From a virus: a DNA stretch of 64,000 nt. Of this stretch, positions 1,927-14,286 are shown piece by piece. The DNA is taken from positions 1 through 64,000 of the IMG/VR virus record IMGVR_UViG_3300047554_000447, one strand, 5' to 3'. Position 1 is the first letter of the stretch; each line of letters starts with the position of its first letter. A program made the translations under genes and the position numbers. The notes under the pieces were generated by a model that did no database searches, had not been told where the DNA came from, and saw only the letters and a list, made by a program, of their open reading frames with translations.

Positions 1927-2303
1927 CACAGTTAAAAGGATATGTTGAAAAGGGTTGGGGATACGAATTAATTTTCGCATCTACTGACAAATACTGCGGT
2001 AAGCTCATGTGCTTTACTAAACCAGGTGCAAAATTCAGTATGCATTTTCACAGAGAAAAAGATGAAACATGGTTTGTGAACGCTGGTCAGTTTATGTTAA
2101 GATATATTGATACACAGACTGCCGAGCTAAAAGAGCTACTATTAAAAGAAGGTGATGTGTGGCATAACCCTCCCCTACAGCCGCATCAAGTTGAAGCACT
2201 TCAACCAAACTCTATAATCTTTGAAGTAAGCACAGCAGATTCAGTAGAAGATAACTACAGGATCGCACCAGGCGACAGCCAAAAGAAAAAGGAAGAGAAA
2301 TGA
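1923..2303 (+). CDS. Small cupin, phosphomannose isomerase type II-like
   Basis: A 126-residue single-domain cupin. It starts with a KGWGYE segment typical of the C-terminal cupin of type II mannose-6-phosphate isomerase / GDP-mannose pyrophosphorylase, has cupin motif 1 as M-H-F-H-R-E-K-D-E-T-W near residues 39-50, and motif 2 as P-P-L-Q-P-H-Q-V near 84. It ends with a short lysine/glutamate tail. It could isomerise or bind a sugar phosphate, or be a metal-dependent enzyme of another kind. It overlaps both neighbours by 4 bp and leads into the sulfotransferase-like gene, suggesting a joint role in making a modified sugar (inference). Confidence 0.75.
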   Translation: MTQLKGYVEKGWGYELIFASTDKYCGKLMCFTKPGAKFSMHFHREKDETWFVNAGQFMLRYIDTQTAELKELLLKEGDVWHNPPLQPHQVEALQPNSIIFEVSTADSVEDNYRIAPGDSQKKKEEK

Positions 2304-2902
2304 AGAGAATTTTCTTTACCGGAGTACCCGGAAGTCGTTGGAGTGGTATAGCACAGATCATTGAAGATAATGTGCCAGGATTTAATACCACTGATAGAGA
2401 TGCAGAAAAAGAATATTCTCATCATGCATTTACTGGCCACAAAGGTGCATACTTTGGTACAGGTATGGAGTTTGAGGCGTACTTAGATAATCCAGAGTAC
2501 TTAGATCGGCCTTGGAAGGAACCGGGCGGAACTAGGTTGATCAAGAGCCACGACTGGGCCACCATGCTAGACCAGATTCAAGAAAAATATCCCGATGACT
2601 CTATCATGTTAGTATATCGTCCTGATATGACTAGTTACGCATGGTGGCACGAAGCTGGCGGCTTTCAAATCAAATATCCAGACTATCGTGCTTACAAGGA
2701 CAGCACTACAATGTTAGCTCACATCATGGAACAGAACAAGTGCATCTTAAAATTTGCTAGAAAGCATAATGCAGTATGGCATCACTTTGGTCGTGATTTT
2801 GTCTATAAATATTTCAATGTAAAAATTGAGGAAGTTGATAATCGATACGAAGATTGTCTAGTTTCTATTATAGGAAATCATGCAAGTAATACTGTTAACT
2901 GA
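2300..2902 (+). CDS. P-loop sulfotransferase-like protein (copy 1)
   Basis: A 200-residue P-loop protein. The N-terminal TGVPGSRWSG (7-16) fits the 5'-phosphosulfate loop of PAPS-dependent sulfotransferases, L-I-K-S-H-D near 80 gives a likely catalytic lysine/histidine, and V-Y-R-P-D...Y-A-W-W near 105-116 fits the 3'-phosphate-binding strand and helix. Two paralogues at 8672 and 9990 share all three blocks, including a following GG(F/W). The reaction would be transfer of sulfate from PAPS to a hydroxyl or amine; the acceptor is unknown. It is translationally coupled to the cupin upstream (ATGA overlap). Confidence 0.7.
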   Translation: MKRIFFTGVPGSRWSGIAQIIEDNVPGFNTTDRDAEKEYSHHAFTGHKGAYFGTGMEFEAYLDNPEYLDRPWKEPGGTRLIKSHDWATMLDQIQEKYPDDSIMLVYRPDMTSYAWWHEAGGFQIKYPDYRAYKDSTTMLAHIMEQNKCILKFARKHNAVWHHFGRDFVYKYFNVKIEEVDNRYEDCLVSIIGNHASNTVN

Positions 2903-4301
2903 TGTTACATTACCGGGCTATCTAAAATATGCAGGACCTTTTCGAATTGCTTCAGAATTAAGATCCAATGGGTTTACAGTCCAAATAATCGATTATGCTA
3001 CCCAGTGGTCAACTACAGAATTAAAAAATATTCTCAGAGACTATATCTCTGATCAAACCTTGTGGGTAGGATTTACTACCACTTTTAATTCTCCTTCGAT
3101 TAGTAGAATTAACAGGATGACCAAATCGGTGGATGTAAATAAAAACATTTACGTACATTATCTAGGTAGAAATGATATTCCGGAAATTCTAGATTTTATA
3201 AAAACTATTAATCCTAAAACAAAAATTGTTGCAGGCGGGCATCAAGCAGATAAATTTAGCCTAGAAAAAATGATTGATCACGTAGTGATAGGACAAGGAG
3301 AAACAGCCGCAGTTCATCTAACTAAATCATTGCTAGATAATCAGAAAGTAGAAAAATATCTTAACGAAAGTAAATTTCCTTATAATAATTTTATTTCCAG
3401 TACTATCGAATATGTTCCAGAAGATATAATCTTTCCTGGCGAGCACCTATCCATAGAATTTTCTCGAGGCTGTACTTTCAAATGTAGTTTTTGCAATTAT
3501 CCGTTGATCGGTCGAGATCTATGGGATTTTTGTAAACCGCCGACATTAATAGCTAGCGAAATACAAAGGAACTACGATCTTTTTAAAACACAAGGGTATC
3601 TTGTCACAGACGATACCATAAACGACAGCGAAGAAAAAATTGAACAGTTACACAAAGAAATAACTAAACTTCCGTTCTCGCTAACATTGTCCTCTTATGC
3701 CAGGCTAGATCTTCTCATAGCAAAGCCAAGAACTTTAGACCTACTATATGAAATGGGATTTAGAAATTTCTTTTTTGGAATAGAAACATTTAATCACGAC
3801 GCTGGAAAAGCTATCGGTAAAGGAATGCATCCTGATAAACTCAAAGCAGGTCTGGAAGATATTAAACGTAGATATCCTGATTTTTTAATCAGTGCAGGTA
3901 TTATATTTGGCTTACCCTATGAATCTCGAGACAGCATGTTGAATACTATAGAATATCTCAAATCTTCCCCTATTGATAATGTTTCGATAGCACCTTACGG
4001 AGTGACACGAACAAGCACTATCGGATCGAATCCAGAAAAATATCAATTTAAAGTTAACGGAAATTTAGACTGGACCAGCGCATGGACTACATCTGCAGAA
4101 GTAATCGATCTAGCTAAACAAGCAGATCAAATCCTCAGACCAAAGAACAAGGCAAACTGGACTTTTTTAAGTCGCCTCATGAACCTCGGCTACAGCTACC
4201 AGTACCTAGGAAATACTCCACTAACAGATATAATCTTCGATGCTGAAGAGCGAAAAGAAACATTAAGAATTCAGTACTACAAAAAAATTAGAAAATCTTA
4301 A
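2880..4301 (+). CDS. Radical SAM protein with B12-binding-type N-terminal domain
   Basis: A 473-residue protein. Residues about 1-150 look like the Rossmann-type cobalamin-binding domain that precedes many radical SAM domains (GPFRIASELRSNGF, IVAGGHQA, VIGQGE), but the B12 motif DxHxxG is not visible. The radical SAM core follows, with the cluster motif C-T-F-K-C-S-F-C near residue 199, then strands ending in F-F-F-G-I-E-T and G-I-I-F-G-L-P typical of B12-radical SAM enzymes. Likely chemistry is a methylation or ring rearrangement of an unactivated carbon. It overlaps the sulfotransferase-like gene by 23 bp and converges on the next gene with a 4-bp overlap. Confidence 0.85.
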   Translation: MQVILLTDVTLPGYLKYAGPFRIASELRSNGFTVQIIDYATQWSTTELKNILRDYISDQTLWVGFTTTFNSPSISRINRMTKSVDVNKNIYVHYLGRNDIPEILDFIKTINPKTKIVAGGHQADKFSLEKMIDHVVIGQGETAAVHLTKSLLDNQKVEKYLNESKFPYNNFISSTIEYVPEDIIFPGEHLSIEFSRGCTFKCSFCNYPLIGRDLWDFCKPPTLIASEIQRNYDLFKTQGYLVTDDTINDSEEKIEQLHKEITKLPFSLTLSSYARLDLLIAKPRTLDLLYEMGFRNFFFGIETFNHDAGKAIGKGMHPDKLKAGLEDIKRRYPDFLISAGIIFGLPYESRDSMLNTIEYLKSSPIDNVSIAPYGVTRTSTIGSNPEKYQFKVNGNLDWTSAWTTSAEVIDLAKQADQILRPKNKANWTFLSRLMNLGYSYQYLGNTPLTDIIFDAEERKETLRIQYYKKIRKS

Positions 4302-5035
4302 AGTTTTTTGTATTCAAAATACAATCTATCGTTGTTGTCTTTCTTAAAAGTTTCAAGATGCAGATTGTAGGTTTTAGAGAACTCATGAGCAATTTCAAAA
4401 CTCCAGGGAAATATATCAACGTAAGGTCCGTTGGGCCACAGTATTCCGGGGTTGGCTCTAAAGTACATTTTGCCGCCGGGCATTAAAATTTCAACAAGTC
4501 GCTTGAATCTAGTTTCAATGTCTTGTTTACTGTTGAAATTTAAACTGCCAAACACAATAATATGATCAAAACTTTCTGGGTCTACCTTAAATTCTAAAAT
4601 GTCAACCATGTAGTCTGCACAGTTATTGTAAGGATCAATTCCCACAAGATTTTCGATGCGGCCTTTAAACGGATTATATCCACAGCCGAAGTCTAGTACA
4701 GCCTTAGGTTTTTCTTTATTGATAGCATCTACTAAAGCCCATCCGCTGTACTGATAAACTTCAGTGGTGGGTTTCCAAATTTCTCCAAAGAACCTATTTA
4801 GGTATCGTTTATCTAAACGATCAACAACCTCTTCAACGGTTCCTTTTAAATCTATGCTGTCGAATTGTAATTCTTCTTTAATACGATCTTCAAACTTTTG
4901 AAATCTTGCAGGTGTCCAGGGCAGAAAGTCAATCCTGGTATTTTCGCAAAGAGTTTCTCTAATTGAATCATACTTGGGTAAACTAAAAGCAGATTCTAAA
5001 TTTTCATGGATTAACTTAAAAATTCTGGTATTCAT
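4298..5035 (-). CDS. SAM-dependent methyltransferase (copy 1)
   Basis: A 245-residue class I methyltransferase. Motif I is V-L-D-F-G-C-G-Y-N-P-F-K-G, followed by G-I-D-P (motif II acidic end), F-D-H-I-I-V-F-G-S-L (motif IV region) and M-P-G-G-K (motif V/VI). The GCGxNxFKG form is shared with the gene at 9373, so the two are paralogues. The start at 5035 is chosen because AAGAGGAAA lies just upstream; an upstream in-frame ATG at 5113 would add 26 residues without a ribosome site. The substrate is unknown. The gene is encoded against its neighbours between the radical SAM gene and the transporter genes. Confidence 0.8.
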   Translation of the reverse strand: MNTRIFKLIHENLESAFSLPKYDSIRETLCENTRIDFLPWTPARFQKFEDRIKEELQFDSIDLKGTVEEVVDRLDKRYLNRFFGEIWKPTTEVYQYSGWALVDAINKEKPKAVLDFGCGYNPFKGRIENLVGIDPYNNCADYMVDILEFKVDPESFDHIIVFGSLNFNSKQDIETRFKRLVEILMPGGKMYFRANPGILWPNGPYVDIFPWSFEIAHEFSKTYNLHLETFKKDNNDRLYFEYKKL

Positions 5036-5142
5036 ACAAAATTTCCTCTTTATGGTAAATATTTTTGTGATTGAGAAAAAATCTCCGTTTCTGAGAAATT
5101 TTTTATCACACAAGCATATATAGTTATCAAGGAGAAAAATAT

Positions 5143-6201
5143 ATGAAAAAAATCTTGGCTGCGGCCTTACTGTATGTTGGATTCGCTACTGCACATGCAG
5201 ATTACACATTAATTGTTCCGCAGGAGCCTGGAAAAGGTACTAGCGTATGGGCGGAAATCGTTGCAAGAAATTTGAGCAAGTATACAGATGAACCAGTAGT
5301 AGTTCGTCATATTCCGGGTGCTAGAGACATTCCAGGATTTAACGAGTTTCATAATAAACTAAGAAACGATCCAAAGACTATTATGGTTGCTCACGGCGGA
5401 AATGGTGTTAGCTTCTTGCTTGATAAAGTTGATTATGATTACCGCCAATATGACAGCATTGGAATGATGAACTTAGATATCGTAGTAGGGAAAAACAAAG
5501 ACATTGACGATAAAACAGGAACCTTTAAAGTTGCTGGTGGTTCGGGACTTGAACCCGACGGTATGGCCATGGCTATGATGGCCTGTGGACCACAGCCTAG
5601 CACCGATGCGTACCTAGCATGTTTTAAGAAACGTATCGTATGGGTCAACGGTGTTAAAGGCAACGAAAGACGCTTAGGATTCATGAGGGGTGAATTTAAC
5701 ACTACTAGAGAATCTGCCGCGGCATGGATCAAGCACTACACAGGTGAAAAAGCAGATCCAAAGAACATTATTTGGTTCACACATGGTATCTACGATTTAT
5801 CAAAGAAAAAACAAATCGCCGACCCTAACTTCCCTAACACACAATTTGAAGAACAGTACAAGTCAGTGTGGGGTGAGTATCCGAAAGGAGAATTGTATGA
5901 AGCGTATCGACTCACACGTAACTGGCGTGACGTTATTCAAAAATCTCTTTGGGTAAACAAAGGTAATCCTAACACAGAAAAACTTCGCTCTGCTCTTAGA
6001 AAGATGATCACAGACCCTGAGGCAGTAGCCGCTCTAGAAAAAGACACAGGAAAATATCCTTGGATCATCGGTAACGACGGTAACAAGGTCATCGGAGAGT
6101 TAGAAAAGCTCATCACTAAAAAGTCACTAGAAACAGCAGTAAAGTGGAATCAAGAAGCCTACGGATTCCCTTCTGTGTTTAAACCAGAATTGTTAAAATA
6201 A
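5143..6201 (+). CDS. tctC: Tripartite tricarboxylate transporter periplasmic receptor (TctC/Bug family)
   Basis: A 352-residue exported solute-binding protein. It begins with a Sec signal peptide (KK, a hydrophobic core, cleavage after A-H-A at residue 19) and then Y-T-L-I-V-P-Q-E-P-G-K-G-T-S, the start of the Bug/TctC fold with the P-loop-like turn that grips carboxylates. Later blocks include V-V-R-H-I-P-G-A and V-A-G-G-S-G. It would capture a carboxylate or related solute in the periplasm and pass it to the membrane subunits encoded directly downstream. An AAGGAG site precedes the ATG. A full transporter in a phage context is unusual. Confidence 0.88.
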   Translation: MKKILAAALLYVGFATAHADYTLIVPQEPGKGTSVWAEIVARNLSKYTDEPVVVRHIPGARDIPGFNEFHNKLRNDPKTIMVAHGGNGVSFLLDKVDYDYRQYDSIGMMNLDIVVGKNKDIDDKTGTFKVAGGSGLEPDGMAMAMMACGPQPSTDAYLACFKKRIVWVNGVKGNERRLGFMRGEFNTTRESAAAWIKHYTGEKADPKNIIWFTHGIYDLSKKKQIADPNFPNTQFEEQYKSVWGEYPKGELYEAYRLTRNWRDVIQKSLWVNKGNPNTEKLRSALRKMITDPEAVAALEKDTGKYPWIIGNDGNKVIGELEKLITKKSLETAVKWNQEAYGFPSVFKPELLK

Positions 6202-6204
6202 TAA

Positions 6205-7644
6205 ATGGAATATTTTGTCTGGATCCTACTAGGAAGCCTTTATGGACTCCTAGTAGGAGTTATTCCGATAGCTGGTGTTACCACAGCCCTAATCACTGTC
6301 TTTAGTTTTGGATCTTATTTTTTAGCAGATCCTTATCTAGGTATCGTGTTTTTGACCAGCATCATAGCGGCCTGTGCTAGTGCTGATAGTTACACTTCTA
6401 TCCTTACCGGAATACCTGGCGCATCAACTACTGCGGCCTGTGTGATAGATGGTTACCCAATGACTAAAAACGGCGAGGCTGGGAGAGCTATGGGTATTGC
6501 CATTTTTGACAGTACCTTTAGCGGAGTATTCTACGGTATCCTAGCCTTTACACTTTTACCGTTTTACGGAAAAATAATATTGTTATTTGGCATACCGGAA
6601 TTTGCAGGATTCATGTTTTTATCGTTGGCCTGTGTGGGATTCGTTACCAGCAAGAATCCTTATAAAAGTGTATTAGCTATTGCTATTGGATTATTCATAG
6701 GATTAATCGGACAAGAGCCCAGCACCGGAGCACCTAGGTTTATCTTTGGTTGGGATTATCTAGAAGCAGGTGTACAAATAATTCCTTTGATATCAGGCCT
6801 GTTCGGTCTTCCAGAATTAATCTTTGGATTCAAAGGCATGCGGTCTCAGACCGTGACCTTGGACAACTACTGGCAACAACTACGTGTTGGGATGAAAGAC
6901 TGTATAACAAATTGGAAAGACATGTTTCGGGGAGGAGTCATTGGTTTCGCCACTGGTCTGTTACCCGGAGTCGGCGGTGCTGTCGGAGATTTTCTTGCAT
7001 ACGGCGCGACCAAAGCTAAACACCCTAATGAAGAATTTGGCAACGGAAATCCCAAAGGCCTATTAGGTTGTGAAGGGGCAAATAATGCACAGAAAGTTTC
7101 AAGTCTAATACCTACTGTGCTATTTGGGATTCCGGCCGCGCCCTTTGCGGCTATAATGATGGCCATCTGTATGTATTTTGGTATTGAGTTAGGTAGTCCC
7201 GAACTAGTATCTGATTCTAAATTTGCGTGGAGTTTAGTTTTAGGATTTGTTGGCGGAACCATACTAGTGGCTATTTTTAGTATATTCTTGATGAAGTTTA
7301 TAATCAAACTTCTAAGTGTACCGTATTGGATCTATGCTTCAGTTATCATCGCTATCATAATATATGCGAATATGGAGTACACAGGCACTTGGCGAGATTT
7401 AGCTATATTAGGTATTTGCTCTTTGTTAGGTATTATGTTAAAATACTTTGATATCAGCAGGCCTGCCGTACTAGTAACCTTTGTGATCGCTGAGAGATTA
7501 GAAAGCTATACAAAACAGACTATGCAACTCTACGATCTAGGAGATCTACTCACTCGTCCTATTTTTGTAGTATGTATTATAGTAGCCTTCTATATCATTT
7601 ACAGAAGTATTAGACATAAAAATCTAGGGATTAATTATACTTGA
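6205..7644 (+). CDS. tctA: Tripartite tricarboxylate transporter large membrane subunit (TctA family)
   Basis: A 479-residue polytopic inner-membrane protein, close to the usual TctA length of about 500. It has many hydrophobic helices, an N-terminal G-L-L-V-G-V-I-P segment, a G-L-L-P-G-V-G-G-A-V-G-D-F loop near residue 255, and the family signature C-E-G-A-N-N-A followed by I-P-T-V-L-F-G-I-P-A. These match the two inverted repeats of TctA permeases, which move substrate with sodium or protons. It begins 3 bp after the receptor gene and is fused in translation to the small membrane gene behind it. Confidence 0.92.
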   Translation: MEYFVWILLGSLYGLLVGVIPIAGVTTALITVFSFGSYFLADPYLGIVFLTSIIAACASADSYTSILTGIPGASTTAACVIDGYPMTKNGEAGRAMGIAIFDSTFSGVFYGILAFTLLPFYGKIILLFGIPEFAGFMFLSLACVGFVTSKNPYKSVLAIAIGLFIGLIGQEPSTGAPRFIFGWDYLEAGVQIIPLISGLFGLPELIFGFKGMRSQTVTLDNYWQQLRVGMKDCITNWKDMFRGGVIGFATGLLPGVGGAVGDFLAYGATKAKHPNEEFGNGNPKGLLGCEGANNAQKVSSLIPTVLFGIPAAPFAAIMMAICMYFGIELGSPELVSDSKFAWSLVLGFVGGTILVAIFSIFLMKFIIKLLSVPYWIYASVIIAIIIYANMEYTGTWRDLAILGICSLLGIMLKYFDISRPAVLVTFVIAERLESYTKQTMQLYDLGDLLTRPIFVVCIIVAFYIIYRSIRHKNLGINYT

Positions 7645-7997
7645 TAGAATTATTACTTACTAACATTATCTATGTTTCCTATAGGCTCATAGTCAGTGGA
7701 CCCATAGTAAAAATCCTAAACAACTACTTGCCGTACTATGCGGCAGTATTTGTTATGGCTCAACTAAGTTTTGCCTACGACACTTTCGTATTTGGTCACT
7801 ATTTTAATGCGCAAGAGTTGCCTGATATATTCAACTATATAAAGTCGGATATACTTTACACTTTACGAGTACTTGCCGCCTGGTGGTTAATCAAACGCAT
7901 ATGGGATCTAGTTAAGAACTATTGGCTATCTGTTTTCATTGGTGCTGAAATAACCTTCGTCTGTGATTATTTTATCTTCAGAGATTTATTTCATTAA
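7641..7997 (+). CDS. Small membrane protein in the TctB position
   Basis: A 118-residue protein with about four hydrophobic segments (near residues 2-22, 32-50, 71-88 and 95-117). It starts at TTG 7641, overlapping the TctA stop by 3 bp; no in-frame ATG lies near, so the coupled TTG start is preferred. TctB subunits are small four-helix proteins of about 150 residues encoded beside TctA and TctC. Position and topology suggest it is a shortened, divergent TctB, but I see no diagnostic sequence motif, so this is inference from context. Confidence 0.6.
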   Translation: MIELLLTNIIYVSYRLIVSGPIVKILNNYLPYYAAVFVMAQLSFAYDTFVFGHYFNAQELPDIFNYIKSDILYTLRVLAAWWLIKRIWDLVKNYWLSVFIGAEITFVCDYFIFRDLFH

Positions 7998-8000
7998 ATA
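7994..8000 (+). promoter_or_regulatory. Late-promoter-like box TTAAATA
   Basis: TTAAATA overlaps the stop of the TctB-like gene, 21 bp before the ATG at 8022. It resembles the T4 late box TATAAATA and matches the boxes seen before many genes here. Confidence 0.45.
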
Positions 8001-8021
8001 TCTGTCTAACAGAGGTTATAC

Positions 8022-8675
8022 ATGGAAAGTAATTGGGATATACAACGAGCAAAATCTAAGTACCATTTTGACAACACCATAATAGATCCTAACTGGGATA
8101 AAGTCCAACATTTAGGTTCTTTTAGTGGAGATTGGTCTAAGGAAGTAGCTGAAGCGATTGAAACTGCTAGACCCGCTACTTGGAGGAATAGGTCAAAGAC
8201 TGGTGCGCCAAACAAGCTCGTTGATGCCGAGGAGTATGATTTAATCAATGCTGGTGCCGATCCTAATATGGTATTTTCAAATCTCGAATACAACCTAGCA
8301 CCAGTATTTCAAAAAATCACTGATTTCTTTGGTCTCTTCAACGAAGAAAGTAGGGTTCATGTACAATGGCCTGGACAGGTTTTTATTAAACATATAGATA
8401 AATTAGAAAAGTTTTATCCTAGCGATCCCAACAGAGTGATCAGAATAATGATCATGCTCACAGACTGGGATCAGGGTCATTACAACCAATATGGTAATTT
8501 TGTTTACCAACAATGGAGAGCCGGAGAAGCTCATACCTTTGACTGGCAAAATGTTCCGCATAGTTCGGCAAACTCGGGATTGACTCCTAGAGTCAGCTTA
8601 CTAGTCACTGGTGTCAAAACAGAGAGAACTGAACAGGCTTTAATCGAACTTAAAAATAACAAAATTATTGTATGA
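8022..8675 (+). CDS. AspH-like 2OG-Fe(II) oxygenase (copy 1)
   Basis: A 217-residue protein with the double-stranded beta-helix core of aspartyl/asparaginyl beta-hydroxylase-like oxygenases. V-H-V-Q-W-P-G-Q is followed by the iron ligands H124 and D126 (K-H-I-D), then W-R-A-G-E-A, the distal iron ligand H180 (V-P-H-S-S-A-N) and R190, the likely 2-oxoglutarate salt bridge. The reaction would be hydroxylation using O2 and 2-oxoglutarate. The gene at 10685 shares this core. Its 3' end overlaps the next sulfotransferase-like gene by 4 bp. The substrate may be a small molecule or a protein side chain. Confidence 0.8.
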   Translation: MESNWDIQRAKSKYHFDNTIIDPNWDKVQHLGSFSGDWSKEVAEAIETARPATWRNRSKTGAPNKLVDAEEYDLINAGADPNMVFSNLEYNLAPVFQKITDFFGLFNEESRVHVQWPGQVFIKHIDKLEKFYPSDPNRVIRIMIMLTDWDQGHYNQYGNFVYQQWRAGEAHTFDWQNVPHSSANSGLTPRVSLLVTGVKTERTEQALIELKNNKIIV

Positions 8676-9373
8676 TCGACGAAAGTAAAATTATTTTTTA
8701 TACAGGTGTTCCTGGTTCTAAATGGAGTGCGTTTGCTCATGTGCTAACTCACACACCGTATCTGAATATCAATACCTCTGATTACGACGAGTCTAAGACC
8801 TATACTCACTACGACACTGGATTCTCAGGCATCAGCCATCAAGGAGCGTACTGGGGACAAGGCAACGGCATAGGCGAAAGATTTCACGAAATAGATAAAC
8901 TTTCGAAACAAGAAATTATCGACGAGATTGAAAAGCCCTATAAAGATAAAAATTGGGATCAATATAGAATCATTAAGTGTCATCAATTTGCTCTAAATCT
9001 CAACTACATTAAAAACACTTTTCCAAAAAGTAAAATACTTGTTGTGATGAGAGATGACAGTATTAGTTATTGGTCATGGATGAAAGCTGGGGGATTTGAA
9101 AAGATTACCTATCCGAATTACAGTGAATACTATAAAGATCCGGATACGATAAAAGCAAAGATTCTAGAGGAAAACTATTATACTAGAAAGTTTGTACAAG
9201 AAAACAATCTCAAGATAGATGTTGTTAGAGAACAGTATTTTAGAGATAGATGGGGAGTTACTAAAGCTAACGATGAGCTGACTAACTATATCAGTTCTTT
9301 AGAAGGTCGCCCAGACAAAGAGATAAATTTTAGATATACACTAGACATCACTGTAAGCGAGTATAATTTTTAA
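8672..9373 (+). CDS. P-loop sulfotransferase-like protein (copy 2)
   Basis: A 233-residue paralogue of the gene at 2300. It keeps the N-terminal TGVPGSKWS loop (11-19), the I-I-K-C-H-Q block where copy 1 has L-I-K-S-H-D, and the 3'-phosphate block V-M-R-D-D...Y-W-S-W-M near 125-137 followed by A-G-G-F. A G-A-Y-W-G-Q segment near 73 matches G-A-Y-F-G-T of copy 1. It overlaps the oxygenase before it by 4 bp and the methyltransferase after it by 1 bp, so oxygenase, sulfotransferase-like protein and methyltransferase are made together. Confidence 0.7.
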   Translation: MIDESKIIFYTGVPGSKWSAFAHVLTHTPYLNINTSDYDESKTYTHYDTGFSGISHQGAYWGQGNGIGERFHEIDKLSKQEIIDEIEKPYKDKNWDQYRIIKCHQFALNLNYIKNTFPKSKILVVMRDDSISYWSWMKAGGFEKITYPNYSEYYKDPDTIKAKILEENYYTRKFVQENNLKIDVVREQYFRDRWGVTKANDELTNYISSLEGRPDKEINFRYTLDITVSEYNF

Positions 9374-9993
9374 TGTCAATTTTAAATACTAACCTAGCAG
9401 ATAAATTCAATCCGAGTTCGTGGGCAGGATGGAAAGCCTGGAAACACTACAAGCACACCGGATTTAATCTCATCGATGAAGTAAATGCTTTGGACCCTGA
9501 CCTAGTCATTGATGTTGGATGTGGTCATAATCGTTTCAAGGGACATATTAAAAACATCATCGGTTTTGATCAAGAACCTTTTCCCTTTGTTGATATCGTA
9601 GCTAACATAGAAGATATTAATTTTAGACTCGAATCGGCAGATGCAGTTCTAGCCCTAGGTAGTATTCAATTCGGTACTAGAGAGTTAGTCCAAAAACACT
9701 TTACTAAAGTTGTAAGTTGGGTCAAACCTGGCGGATATATTGTAATGAGGACCATGAGAGATTCTGTTTCTTCATATCATCATCAAGAATCTCACTACAT
9801 CTGGACCGACGACGATATTATTAATATCGGCAATGATCACAGCCTAGAGATTATCAAAGGTCCATTTGTTGAAGAAGTGTTGGATGCGTTTAATGAAGTT
9901 AGAAGTACACGCATGGCATGGTGGTATAAAAAACCGGGCGAGCTAAAAAAATATAAAATTGATCCGTATAACTGTAAAGTAGAACAGCGATGA
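9373..9993 (+). CDS. SAM-dependent methyltransferase (copy 2)
   Basis: A 206-residue class I methyltransferase with motif I V-I-D-V-G-C-G-H-N-R-F-K-G near residue 37, an acidic G-F-D-Q-E-P after strand 2, A-V-L-A-L-G-S-I-Q-F (motif IV region) and V-K-P-G-G-Y (motif VI region). The GCGxNxFKG form marks it as a paralogue of the minus-strand enzyme at 4298. It lies between two sulfotransferase-like genes, overlapping both by 1-4 bp. The acceptor is unknown. Confidence 0.8.
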   Translation: MSILNTNLADKFNPSSWAGWKAWKHYKHTGFNLIDEVNALDPDLVIDVGCGHNRFKGHIKNIIGFDQEPFPFVDIVANIEDINFRLESADAVLALGSIQFGTRELVQKHFTKVVSWVKPGGYIVMRTMRDSVSSYHHQESHYIWTDDDIINIGNDHSLEIIKGPFVEEVLDAFNEVRSTRMAWWYKKPGELKKYKIDPYNCKVEQR

Positions 9994-10685
9994 TTATTAA
10001 TGATTTAAAATTTCATTTCGTAGCAGGATGCCCTGGTTCAGCATGGAGCATGATCAGCCAGCGATTCAAGAGAGCATTTAAAGATAAGTTTGACAACTCA
10101 GATGAAGTTGGACAAAGAAGTTATAACTTACCTGAAGAACATAAATCACAATATACTGTGATCGCAGAAAACTGGCAGGCAACTACACATAAAGGCATGT
10201 ACTTTGGTCCTTATCACGAGTACGGTGAGGATTTTGATGATCTTAGAAAATATTCTTCCGTTGATGATTTTTACAAAGAGTGCCTAAAGCCCTATAAAGA
10301 TGTTCTTGCCCCTTATAAGTTAATCAAAAGTCACTGGTTTTCATATAACTTAGATTGGCTATGGGATAACTGTAAAGGACATTCTATCATGCTAGTATGG
10401 AGAGATTCCGTACAAGCAGAAGACTGGTGGTATAAGATGGGAGGCTGGAGCATTGACTATCCTATCTACACTTGGTATGAAAACACAGAAAGAATGCGAC
10501 AACAAATCGAAGAAGAAAATAAACTAATTATGGAATTTGGAACAAGAAAAAATGTTCAATGGTATGACTATGATCACGACGGTGTATGGTTAGAAAAGAG
10601 GTTTAACATACCTCCATTGTCAAAACCTCAGGCATATCCTAATTTCGTTGATGCACCTAAAGTAGCTATAATGGATATCGTATAA
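9990..10685 (+). CDS. P-loop sulfotransferase-like protein (copy 3)
   Basis: A 231-residue third paralogue. Its loop is A-G-C-P-G-S-A-W-S (12-20), its lysine/histidine block L-I-K-S-H-W, and its 3'-phosphate block M-L-V-W-R-D...D-W-W-Y near 134-148 followed by M-G-G-W. H-K-G-M-Y-F-G-P corresponds to the G-A-Y-(F/W)-G block of the other copies. It is the most divergent copy and may use a different acceptor. It overlaps the methyltransferase by 4 bp and the following oxygenase by 1 bp. Confidence 0.68.
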   Translation: MIINDLKFHFVAGCPGSAWSMISQRFKRAFKDKFDNSDEVGQRSYNLPEEHKSQYTVIAENWQATTHKGMYFGPYHEYGEDFDDLRKYSSVDDFYKECLKPYKDVLAPYKLIKSHWFSYNLDWLWDNCKGHSIMLVWRDSVQAEDWWYKMGGWSIDYPIYTWYENTERMRQQIEEENKLIMEFGTRKNVQWYDYDHDGVWLEKRFNIPPLSKPQAYPNFVDAPKVAIMDIV

Positions 10686-11665
10686 TGAGTAAAAATCTAA
10701 TAAGAATTATACCCCACGATGAATGGGTTGAGAAGCAAAGAGATTTAACCATTCGACAAGCAGAGTGGGAAAAGGCTCGTGACAAGTGGATGGAGTTTCA
10801 GGGGCCACCTCCAGGACCACCACCGAGAAATTGGAATGATCCCGAGACAGGTAAACCTAGTCGTTGGTTACAAGCTAAGAGCTTTAGTAATTACGACGAA
10901 ACTAGATTTGGTCCTGATCCTATCGACAGCGTCATTGATAGACTAGGTATCTTTGAAGGTCTAGACTTTGCACCGGATATCAAATATGGTGAAGAAGGAA
11001 ACTTTGGAGCCACTACACTAATTGATCGTACTGGGACCCCAGAGTACAGAGATGAGATGAGCAGTCACTATCCTATTACTATGGTTAATGATGCTGAAAA
11101 GATCGGCATCGACTTAGATAACTTTCCTATGTTTGACGGTGCTCTAGTAGAGGACCGATCATCTTGTAGAAGGATTTCAGACTTCATTGGCCTAGATTAT
11201 GAAACTGCAAACGCCGGTGCTCGTCGAGACTACGGATATGAGAGCTTTCATATGCAACGTCCTGGTCAAATGCTGATGTATCATCATGATCTTTACTATG
11301 CCGTAATACGTGACGTAGATATGGAACTTGCATGGAAACCAGAGAAACTTAGAAGATTCGTAATCTTCATGGAAGACTGGATTCCGGGGCATATCTGGAT
11401 CGCAGGAAATTCTACTTATAGTCATTGGCGCAAGGGAGAATGCATTAGTTGGAACTGGCAGGACATGCCGCACGGTACTGCTAATCTAAGTCCAAAGACT
11501 AGATACAGCGTACACCTAACTGGTTACATGACAGAGTCTAGTTGGGAATTTTATAATCGTGGAAATAAAGATATGCGGTATCGCCCTAATGCGATTGGAG
11601 GCTTTGATGCGTATCAAGTTAAAGAAGATGGCTCTGAAGAGTTAATTTACGCAAAAGGAAAGTAA
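10685..11665 (+). CDS. AspH-like 2OG-Fe(II) oxygenase (copy 2, long form)
   Basis: A 326-residue protein whose second half matches the oxygenase at 8022: H-M-Q-R-P-G-Q-M, iron ligands H200 and D202 (Y-H-H-D), W-R-K-G-E, distal ligand H263 (M-P-H-G-T-A-N) and R273. Where copy 1 starts almost directly with the core, this protein carries an extra N-terminal region of about 100 residues with a proline-rich stretch (PPPGPPPR, 41-48). It is expected to hydroxylate an unknown substrate. It follows copy 3 of the sulfotransferase-like family by a 1-bp overlap. Confidence 0.78.
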   Translation: MSKNLIRIIPHDEWVEKQRDLTIRQAEWEKARDKWMEFQGPPPGPPPRNWNDPETGKPSRWLQAKSFSNYDETRFGPDPIDSVIDRLGIFEGLDFAPDIKYGEEGNFGATTLIDRTGTPEYRDEMSSHYPITMVNDAEKIGIDLDNFPMFDGALVEDRSSCRRISDFIGLDYETANAGARRDYGYESFHMQRPGQMLMYHHDLYYAVIRDVDMELAWKPEKLRRFVIFMEDWIPGHIWIAGNSTYSHWRKGECISWNWQDMPHGTANLSPKTRYSVHLTGYMTESSWEFYNRGNKDMRYRPNAIGGFDAYQVKEDGSEELIYAKGK

Positions 11666-13005: not shown

Positions 13006-13576
13006 GCCTATCCTTAAATTCTGTTCTTAGTTTAAAATACATATCAAGATCGAGTTCCCAGACTGACTGCTCAGTATAGAACAACATCATTTTATCGACT
13101 AGCTTAGTAACAAGACCTTGCCTTTCTAAAAGATTAAACACCCTATGGCTTTTCTCCATAGAGGATATACTGTTAGTCCAATTGGTAGTGATTACAAACC
13201 TCTTGTATCCTACTTCTTGCCCGTATTTGATTTGTAAAGGAACGTGATAAAAGAATGGGATAGATCCCATGTGTGTTTTGCTCATTATTCCATGATAGTT
13301 TTTATACTGCGGAAGTTCTGCACCTCTAAACAGTATCCTATAGACATCTGAACCTACTTCTTTTAAGGGATGGCAACCACTAACTGAAATTATTTCATTT
13401 TCTAATCTGCTGGTATAAAATGCGCCGCCGAGATCTAAACACCAATCTAATTTCATGCTTTGTAGACTACGATTGTTAGCATAACCTGCAAGATCACAAG
13501 AACTACAAAATTTTAATAAATCTTCTTTTTGAGATCTATCGTAGATTGTTGTTATTAACCTTTTTTCGGCGCCCAT
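12995..13576 (-). CDS. Possible GNAT-like acyltransferase
   Basis: A 193-residue soluble protein. E-I-I-S-V-S-G-C-H-P-L near residue 63 followed by Y-R-I-L-F-R-G-A-E and the later pattern V-F-N-L-L-E-R-Q-G-L-V resemble the core strands and late helix of GNAT-type acyltransferases, but a clear acetyl-CoA Q/RxxGxG/A motif is not visible. It is encoded between an adenylate-forming enzyme and a possible P-loop protein with 22- and 11-bp overlaps, which would suit transfer of an activated acyl group (inference). It may instead be an unrelated phage protein. Confidence 0.45.
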   Translation of the reverse strand: MGAEKRLITTIYDRSQKEDLLKFCSSCDLAGYANNRSLQSMKLDWCLDLGGAFYTSRLENEIISVSGCHPLKEVGSDVYRILFRGAELPQYKNYHGIMSKTHMGSIPFFYHVPLQIKYGQEVGYKRFVITTNWTNSISSMEKSHRVFNLLERQGLVTKLVDKMMLFYTEQSVWELDLDMYFKLRTEFKDRHGL

Positions 13577-14286
13577 AGATCAATATCCTTGTTAGTCCTT
13601 CCTTGATAAAACATAAAATCATCTTTCATAACTACCAGGTCTTTAGTTGGATACCAGCCATTAAAAATTGATAAGTCACCTCTAACTATTAGCTCGTTAT
13701 TAACTATCTTCCAGTCACACCAGAATGTATTACCTAATAAGGTAGAATCAGGTGGTGAAATATTTTTGATCGCTTTTACCTGTGCTAGACTAGTAAACAC
13801 AGTATTAATGGCTATAGGCCCAACTTCGCTCATACCCCAGTTAGTCATAAAAGTTGCTCCTCGGTCAACAAAGGCTTCTATGATATCCCAGGTCACAGGG
13901 TCAGCACCGCAGGTGACCCACACACCAGACAAATCTAAAGTTTTAAAACCTTTGGTCAACATTATTGCTTTGGCGTGTAGCGGAGTGATGTGGGTATGGG
14001 TGTATTTTTTAATCTTTTTTACAAACTCGTAGGCATTAAATGGTTCTATGTCAACATGAGCACCAATGCTTAACGCTGGTAAAGTTTGAGCTAACAATCC
14101 GCCGGCATGAGTTATTTTACAGCAGGTATATATTCTACTCTGTTTGGTAATGTGCTGGGCTTGTAAAGCTATCTGATTGGCGAATATCAACTTATCAGTT
14201 GTTTGATAAAAATCATTAGGCTTACCGCTAGTTCCAGAACTAGAAATGATTACACCTTCTTTGAGTATTTTTTGATAATTTATCAT
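13555..14286 (-). CDS. Miniature adenylate-forming (ANL/AMP-binding) enzyme
   Basis: A 243-residue protein with the core motifs of acyl-CoA synthetase-like adenylating enzymes: phosphate loop S-S-S-G-T-S-G-K-P (A3) at about 15-23, T-N-W-G-M-S-E-V-G-P (A5), Y-P-T-K-D-L (A7) and Q-G-R-T-N-K-D-I (A8) near the end. Normal family members are 450-550 residues; here A3 is almost at the N-terminus and the C-terminal domain with the A10 lysine is missing. It could adenylate a carboxylate without thioesterification. First gene of a minus-strand operon; the ATG lies 4 bp after a late-type box. Confidence 0.8.
   Translation of the reverse strand: MINYQKILKEGVIISSSGTSGKPNDFYQTTDKLIFANQIALQAQHITKQSRIYTCCKITHAGGLLAQTLPALSIGAHVDIEPFNAYEFVKKIKKYTHTHITPLHAKAIMLTKGFKTLDLSGVWVTCGADPVTWDIIEAFVDRGATFMTNWGMSEVGPIAINTVFTSLAQVKAIKNISPPDSTLLGNTFWCDWKIVNNELIVRGDLSIFNGWYPTKDLVVMKDDFMFYQGRTNKDIDLWAPKKG

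Follow-up and report, generated by a model that had tools for sequence, protein, structure and literature searches.

The stretch of DNA analysed here (the window, 64,000 bases) corresponds to bases 1–64000 of an 86,348-base virus record from IMG/VR. Three open reading frames on the plus strand, at 5143–6201, 6205–7644 and 7641–7997, were all present as claimed in an earlier annotation made without database searches (the sequence-only reading), and they form a tightly packed operon. A ribosome-binding site (AAGGAG, 5129–5134, plus strand) was read in the sequence ahead of the ATG of the first gene, which encodes an exported, divergent TctC/Bug solute-binding protein. The stop codon of this gene ends at 6201 and the ATG of the second, a TctA permease, follows at 6205 after a gap of 3 bases, while the TGA stop codon of TctA and the TTG start codon of the third gene (ORF3, at 7641) overlap as TTGA. 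L013, a contig of a different IMG sample, has the identical gene order at 98–100% identity, which makes a local misassembly of bacterial DNA, the possibility that the sequence-only reading had raised against itself, unlikely.

Receptor, permease and third protein

Searches with Pfam, NCBIfam and PHROGs alone called only TctA, and the receptor (5143–6201, plus strand) was identified by profile-profile and fold comparison. Against the PF03401 profile the window protein gave no match, and only one of 29 viral members did, at E 0.14. A profile built from 29 viral relatives was aligned with hhalign to a profile of 38 TctCs (36 of them bacterial) at 99.15% (E 3.5e-19), and the same viral profile searched against PDB sequences returned Bug/TctC chains at the top (best E 0.016). 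Foldseek of the AF2 model (pLDDT 90.8) against the PDB placed Bug/TctC structures in positions 1–17, with a best E of 8e-10. BLASTP aligned the receptor to a proteobacterial TctC (L143), encoded beside one of the closest cellular TctAs, with 28% identity over 338 residues (E 9e-34); that protein itself matches PF03401 at 5.7e-7, and the long cellular TctC relatives also match this profile, some of them slightly under its cut-off. The proposed TctC/Bug receptor was thus upheld by these comparisons, although not by the direct PF03401 match expected of it. A GDSL-lipase assignment from Pfam (best 0.0016 among relatives) was rejected, being far under the cut-off, and the fold is that of Bug.

The signal peptide proposed earlier is conserved: in the pattern read from the alignment, A17 and A19 (A-x-A) are invariant in 29 receptors, and the peptide is probably of Sec type, with predicted cleavage between AHA and DYT. 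Cysteines C148 and C160 are invariant across the family. At the acidic position of the beta1-alpha1 loop, all 38 canonical TctCs have D or E and 11 of 17 long cellular ones have D, but 32 of 33 viral receptors have S, A or T. The sole viral receptor with an aspartate there is that of L046, whose TctA branches among the deepest of the viral proteins in the tree. In characterised TctCs this Asp takes part in coordinating the carboxylate of the ligand; in BugD, the beta1-alpha1 loop coordinates the proximal carboxylate of the ligand through water (PMC5812351).

The second gene (6205–7644, plus strand) encodes a TctA permease of 479 aa with approximately 12 hydrophobic segments. The profile search with PF01970 matched residues 5–423 to profile positions 2–422 of 423 (E 1.1e-93), which bears out the description of a full-length permease. 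Viral TctAs are 478–502 aa long and end ahead of the position of a TctB domain. Among the 60 positions conserved in at least 85% of 76 cellular TctAs, 41 are retained in the viral clade. The family loop motifs ascribed to this protein were only partly found. The second PG loop (residues 253–258, LPGVGG, 6961–6978, plus strand) is canonical, with P254, G255 and G257 of the PGxGG motif invariant in 30 viral TctAs, and the DG(Y/F) and NN motifs are intact. The first PG loop (residues 18–27, 6256–6285, plus strand) is altered and reads GVIPIAGVTT, whereas the family has GxLPGxGG. Gly22, which follows the proline and is present in 100% of the 76 cellular TctAs and 95% of 22 fused TctAs, is lost in the viral clade, where the pattern is P-x-A-G-(V/A)-T-T with the proline retained.

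ORF3 (7641–7997, plus strand, TTG start) encodes a small membrane protein whose relatives are conserved at 53–76% identity. Its AF2 model consists of four helices (pLDDT 93.3), which arose by duplication of a two-helix unit within the protein: residues ~1–56 and ~60–118 were aligned to each other by hhalign at 97% (E 1e-10), with a score of 50.6 against a maximum of 17.7 for shuffled sequences. The profile search of ORF3 with PF07331 (TctB) gave no match. With hhalign, ORF3 reached 0.9% against stand-alone TctB and 0.07% against the TctB domain of fused TctAs, whereas the controls gave 97.95% (stand-alone against fused TctB) and 100% (split TctB). Foldseek of ORF3 against the PDB and BFVD returned nothing below 0.001. 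The small four-helix protein in the TctB position is therefore confirmed in its helices, as modelled, and in its place beside TctA, but not in any homology to TctB. Further small proteins encoded in the vicinity of the pair (c14, c16, c17, c19, c23, c46 and c73) were tested as TctB candidates and none qualified; c46 is a TctA remnant. Since none of the tests applied showed homology between ORF3 and TctB, and the TctB domain of the nearest cellular relatives is absent from the viral TctA, the claim of a complete tripartite tricarboxylate-type transporter is unsupported as it stands.

ORF3 was found near TctA in 15 of ~49 loci (duplicates included) and was absent nearby in most. A query with ORF3 only returned six distinct loci, five of which have a TctC gene within ~4 kb. 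Without TctA, ORF3 occurs in a few contigs, which are incomplete. Two of these records (L051 and L054, 24–64 kb) encode a canonical PF03401 TctC and ORF3, with no TctA found; the TctC gene is followed directly by the ORF3-type gene, at 6985–8328 in L051 and 9039–10357 in L054. In L057, ORF3 is present and neither TctA nor TctC was found in the record. From this distribution across loci, a link of ORF3 to the receptor is likely, and a TctB-like role is possible.

Viral carriers and neighbouring genes

The TctC-TctA pair was found in more than 40 IMG/VR contigs. A query with TctC only returned 41 viral contigs, all 41 with an adjacent TctA, in the order C-A or A-C. The gp23 capsid protein is encoded on pair-bearing records of 60–323 kb (G020, G014, G024, G018, G013 and G028) and terminase on five (G011, G028, G013, G024 and G018). 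Neither gp23 nor terminase was found in the window's own record, which is incomplete at 86,348 bases; it also encodes a DNA-polymerase clamp loader, a Lon-like protease, tail-fibre proteins and an endolysin. The carriers of the pair are large, uncultured T4-like phages from many samples. Among INPHARED phages, the receptor and ORF3 had no match and TctA had weak matches of 25–32%. TctC and TctA alike have dN/dS values of 0.03–0.13, indicating purifying selection. The occurrence of a TTT-type receptor and permease in phage, the central claim of the sequence-only reading, is thus borne out by the contigs, by gp23 or terminase on several of them and by dN/dS.

Two variants of the locus were observed. 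In L035 (5168–11053), two TctC genes ~2.3 kb apart accompany one TctA. In L022–L025, a 61-aa open reading frame directly upstream of TctC (~9869–9931) is a TctA remnant, in which the N-terminal loop with a canonical PGAG is fused to a piece near residues 381–401. It represents a deleted second copy of TctA and hints at an earlier A-C gene order in these phages.

The pair lies in an island rich in repeated gene families. These include proteins with an HxD...H...R pattern, the signature of 2OG-Fe(II) oxygenases, whose conservation across 35 members is 94% or higher, together with SAM methyltransferases, P-loop sulfotransferase-like proteins, a B12 radical SAM protein and an AMP-binding enzyme. 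Window positions 2300–11665 hold three P-loop sulfotransferase-like, two methyltransferase and two HxD..H..R oxygenase-like genes, and the repeated families of this stretch are common to most relatives. The B12-binding radical SAM protein is encoded at 2880–4301, its best NCBIfam match being the PhpK P-methyltransferase family (2e-25, under the cut-off). A half-size AMP-binding (acyl-CoA ligase-like) enzyme is encoded on the minus strand at 13555–14286, beside two related genes. The island families lie near the pair in most loci and occur also in loci missing TctA, so the substrate cannot be read from them. That the transporter might feed 2-oxoglutarate to the adjacent oxygenases is speculation only, because the island carries several copies of these oxygenases, which are also found without TctA.

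Origin and comparison with known systems

A single clade (SH-aLRT 100) unites 30 viral TctAs on a stem of 1.69 changes per site; the tree was built quickly and its branches are long. The phylogeny, which had been expected to identify a donor clade, therefore points to no recent donor. The closest cellular TctAs found are 28–35% identical. A scan of a genome collection returned none above ~34%, at low sensitivity, as most viral relatives at 57–62% were missed as well. Whole-genome searches covered two classes, one around a Sulfitobacter genome (385 genomes) and one around a Rhodocyclaceae genome (369 genomes), and gave best TctAs of 35% and 34%. Because the pair is very unlike any bacterial version examined, it looks like a long-standing viral possession and not a recent theft.

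The best cellular matches were proteobacterial operons of a long TctC (360–400 aa) and a TctA with a C-terminally fused TctB (640–700 aa), e.g. L142–L145. The viral proteins resemble these at 31–35% in TctA and 23–28% in TctC (E down to 9e-34, over 300+ residues), but the viral TctA is 478–502 aa long without the fused TctB domain. The viral clade shares a half of the tree with the fused TctA-TctB group (support 91), and the tree singled out no group as its exact sister. The most economical account of the viral TctA is that it lost the TctB domain, although it may instead descend from an unfused form. The 99 kb records L011/L012 carry a separate second viral TctA (9926–11413) that nests among bacterial sequences in the tree. 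Upstream of it lies a TctB-like fragment of 63 aa (PF07331 E 8e-6, under the cut-off), and this TctA looks like an independent acquisition from bacteria.

Compared with the TTT family as a whole (TC 2.A.80; TctABC/Bug), the viral system shares a TctC-type periplasmic receptor with a signal peptide adjoining a TctA permease that keeps the second PG loop and the DG(Y/F) and NN motifs. It differs in being without a TctB homologue, in the replaced receptor Asp, in the altered first PG loop and in forming its own clade. In the literature, mainly outside subscription journals, only two precedents and no description of this clade were found. In SUP05-associated viral contigs, tctA was reported as a single annotation, 'protein domain hit only' (PMC4164917, 2014), and the genomic island of a myovirus contig held a single tricarboxylate-transport gene (PMC8115048, 2020). 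Both are likewise virus-associated TTT-type genes, from oxygen-poor sea water, but neither report describes a receptor-permease pair, a viral clade or a missing TctB. Viral AMGs such as AmtB and FocA (PMC8115048) are similar in that nutrient import is encoded by the phage; they are single-component channels or transporters, whereas here an exported receptor and a permease travel together.

Proposed function and alternatives

We consider it likely that TctC and TctA constitute a phage-specific, TctB-less, binding-protein-dependent secondary transporter of TTT type, with a duplicated four-helix helper. We infer that the genes would be expressed in infection and that the receptor would be exported into the host periplasm, where it would bind a small, probably anionic solute and pass it to TctA in the inner membrane. 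The permease would import the solute, driven by an ion gradient, and ORF3 would probably aid assembly or handover in TctB's stead. A carboxylate, an amino acid or a similar compound is plausible as the solute. Since the ligand loop of the receptor and the first PG loop of TctA are altered clade-wide, the sequences suggest a ligand or binding mode unlike those of characterised TTTs. Loss of the loop Asp and of Gly22 means that activity of the pair is not guaranteed, but the strong purifying selection argues against decay. Tentatively, and with less than even confidence, the system may represent an ancient viral TTT branch that dropped TctB, took on an unrelated four-helix partner and altered its loops for a metabolite new to characterised TTTs.

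In the only TTT whose two membrane subunits have both been deleted, the terephthalate TpiBA system, both proved essential (reviewed in PMC5812351), so a TctB-less pair might need TctB from the host. In a rival reading, the viral TctC and TctA, along with ORF3, would join a host TTT, for instance by using its TctB, and bring a new substrate to an existing system rather than form one of their own. The lack of TctB in the virus would fit this, as would the related phages in which only a canonical TctC and ORF3, and no TctA, were found on records of 24–64 kb. We regard this reading as unlikely, given that the pair is kept in 41 of 41 contigs from the TctC query and that a viral TctA just 28–35% identical to cellular ones makes mixed complexes less likely. 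A periplasmic and a small membrane protein could also change the envelope for signalling or to block a second phage, transport being secondary. TctC does have a part in TctDE signalling (PMC8102459), and ORF3, a small membrane protein, has no homology to transporters and in L057 occurs with neither TctA nor TctC found in the record. A full-length permease retaining 41 of 60 conserved positions under strong purifying selection is hard to explain without transport, however, and such sensing or superinfection control appears quite improbable.

TctA and TctC are common in bacteria, and the second TctA of L011/L012 resembles a separate bacterial acquisition, so ordinary host genes acquired recently, or bacterial DNA joined to a viral contig by misassembly, were also weighed. 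Against this stand the single deep viral clade, the lack of any cellular relative exceeding 35% among the genomes searched, the repetition of the arrangement in an independent contig and the capsid and terminase genes on sibling records. Either origin is very hard to credit.

Nutrient import by phages has mostly been argued from single binding proteins or channels. Here, a receptor and a permease are inherited together under purifying selection in T4-like phages, which opens phage-directed solute uptake to direct tests using two or three small genes. If the proposed TctB-less transporter is real, it would be a naturally occurring test case for the operation of a TTT without TctB.
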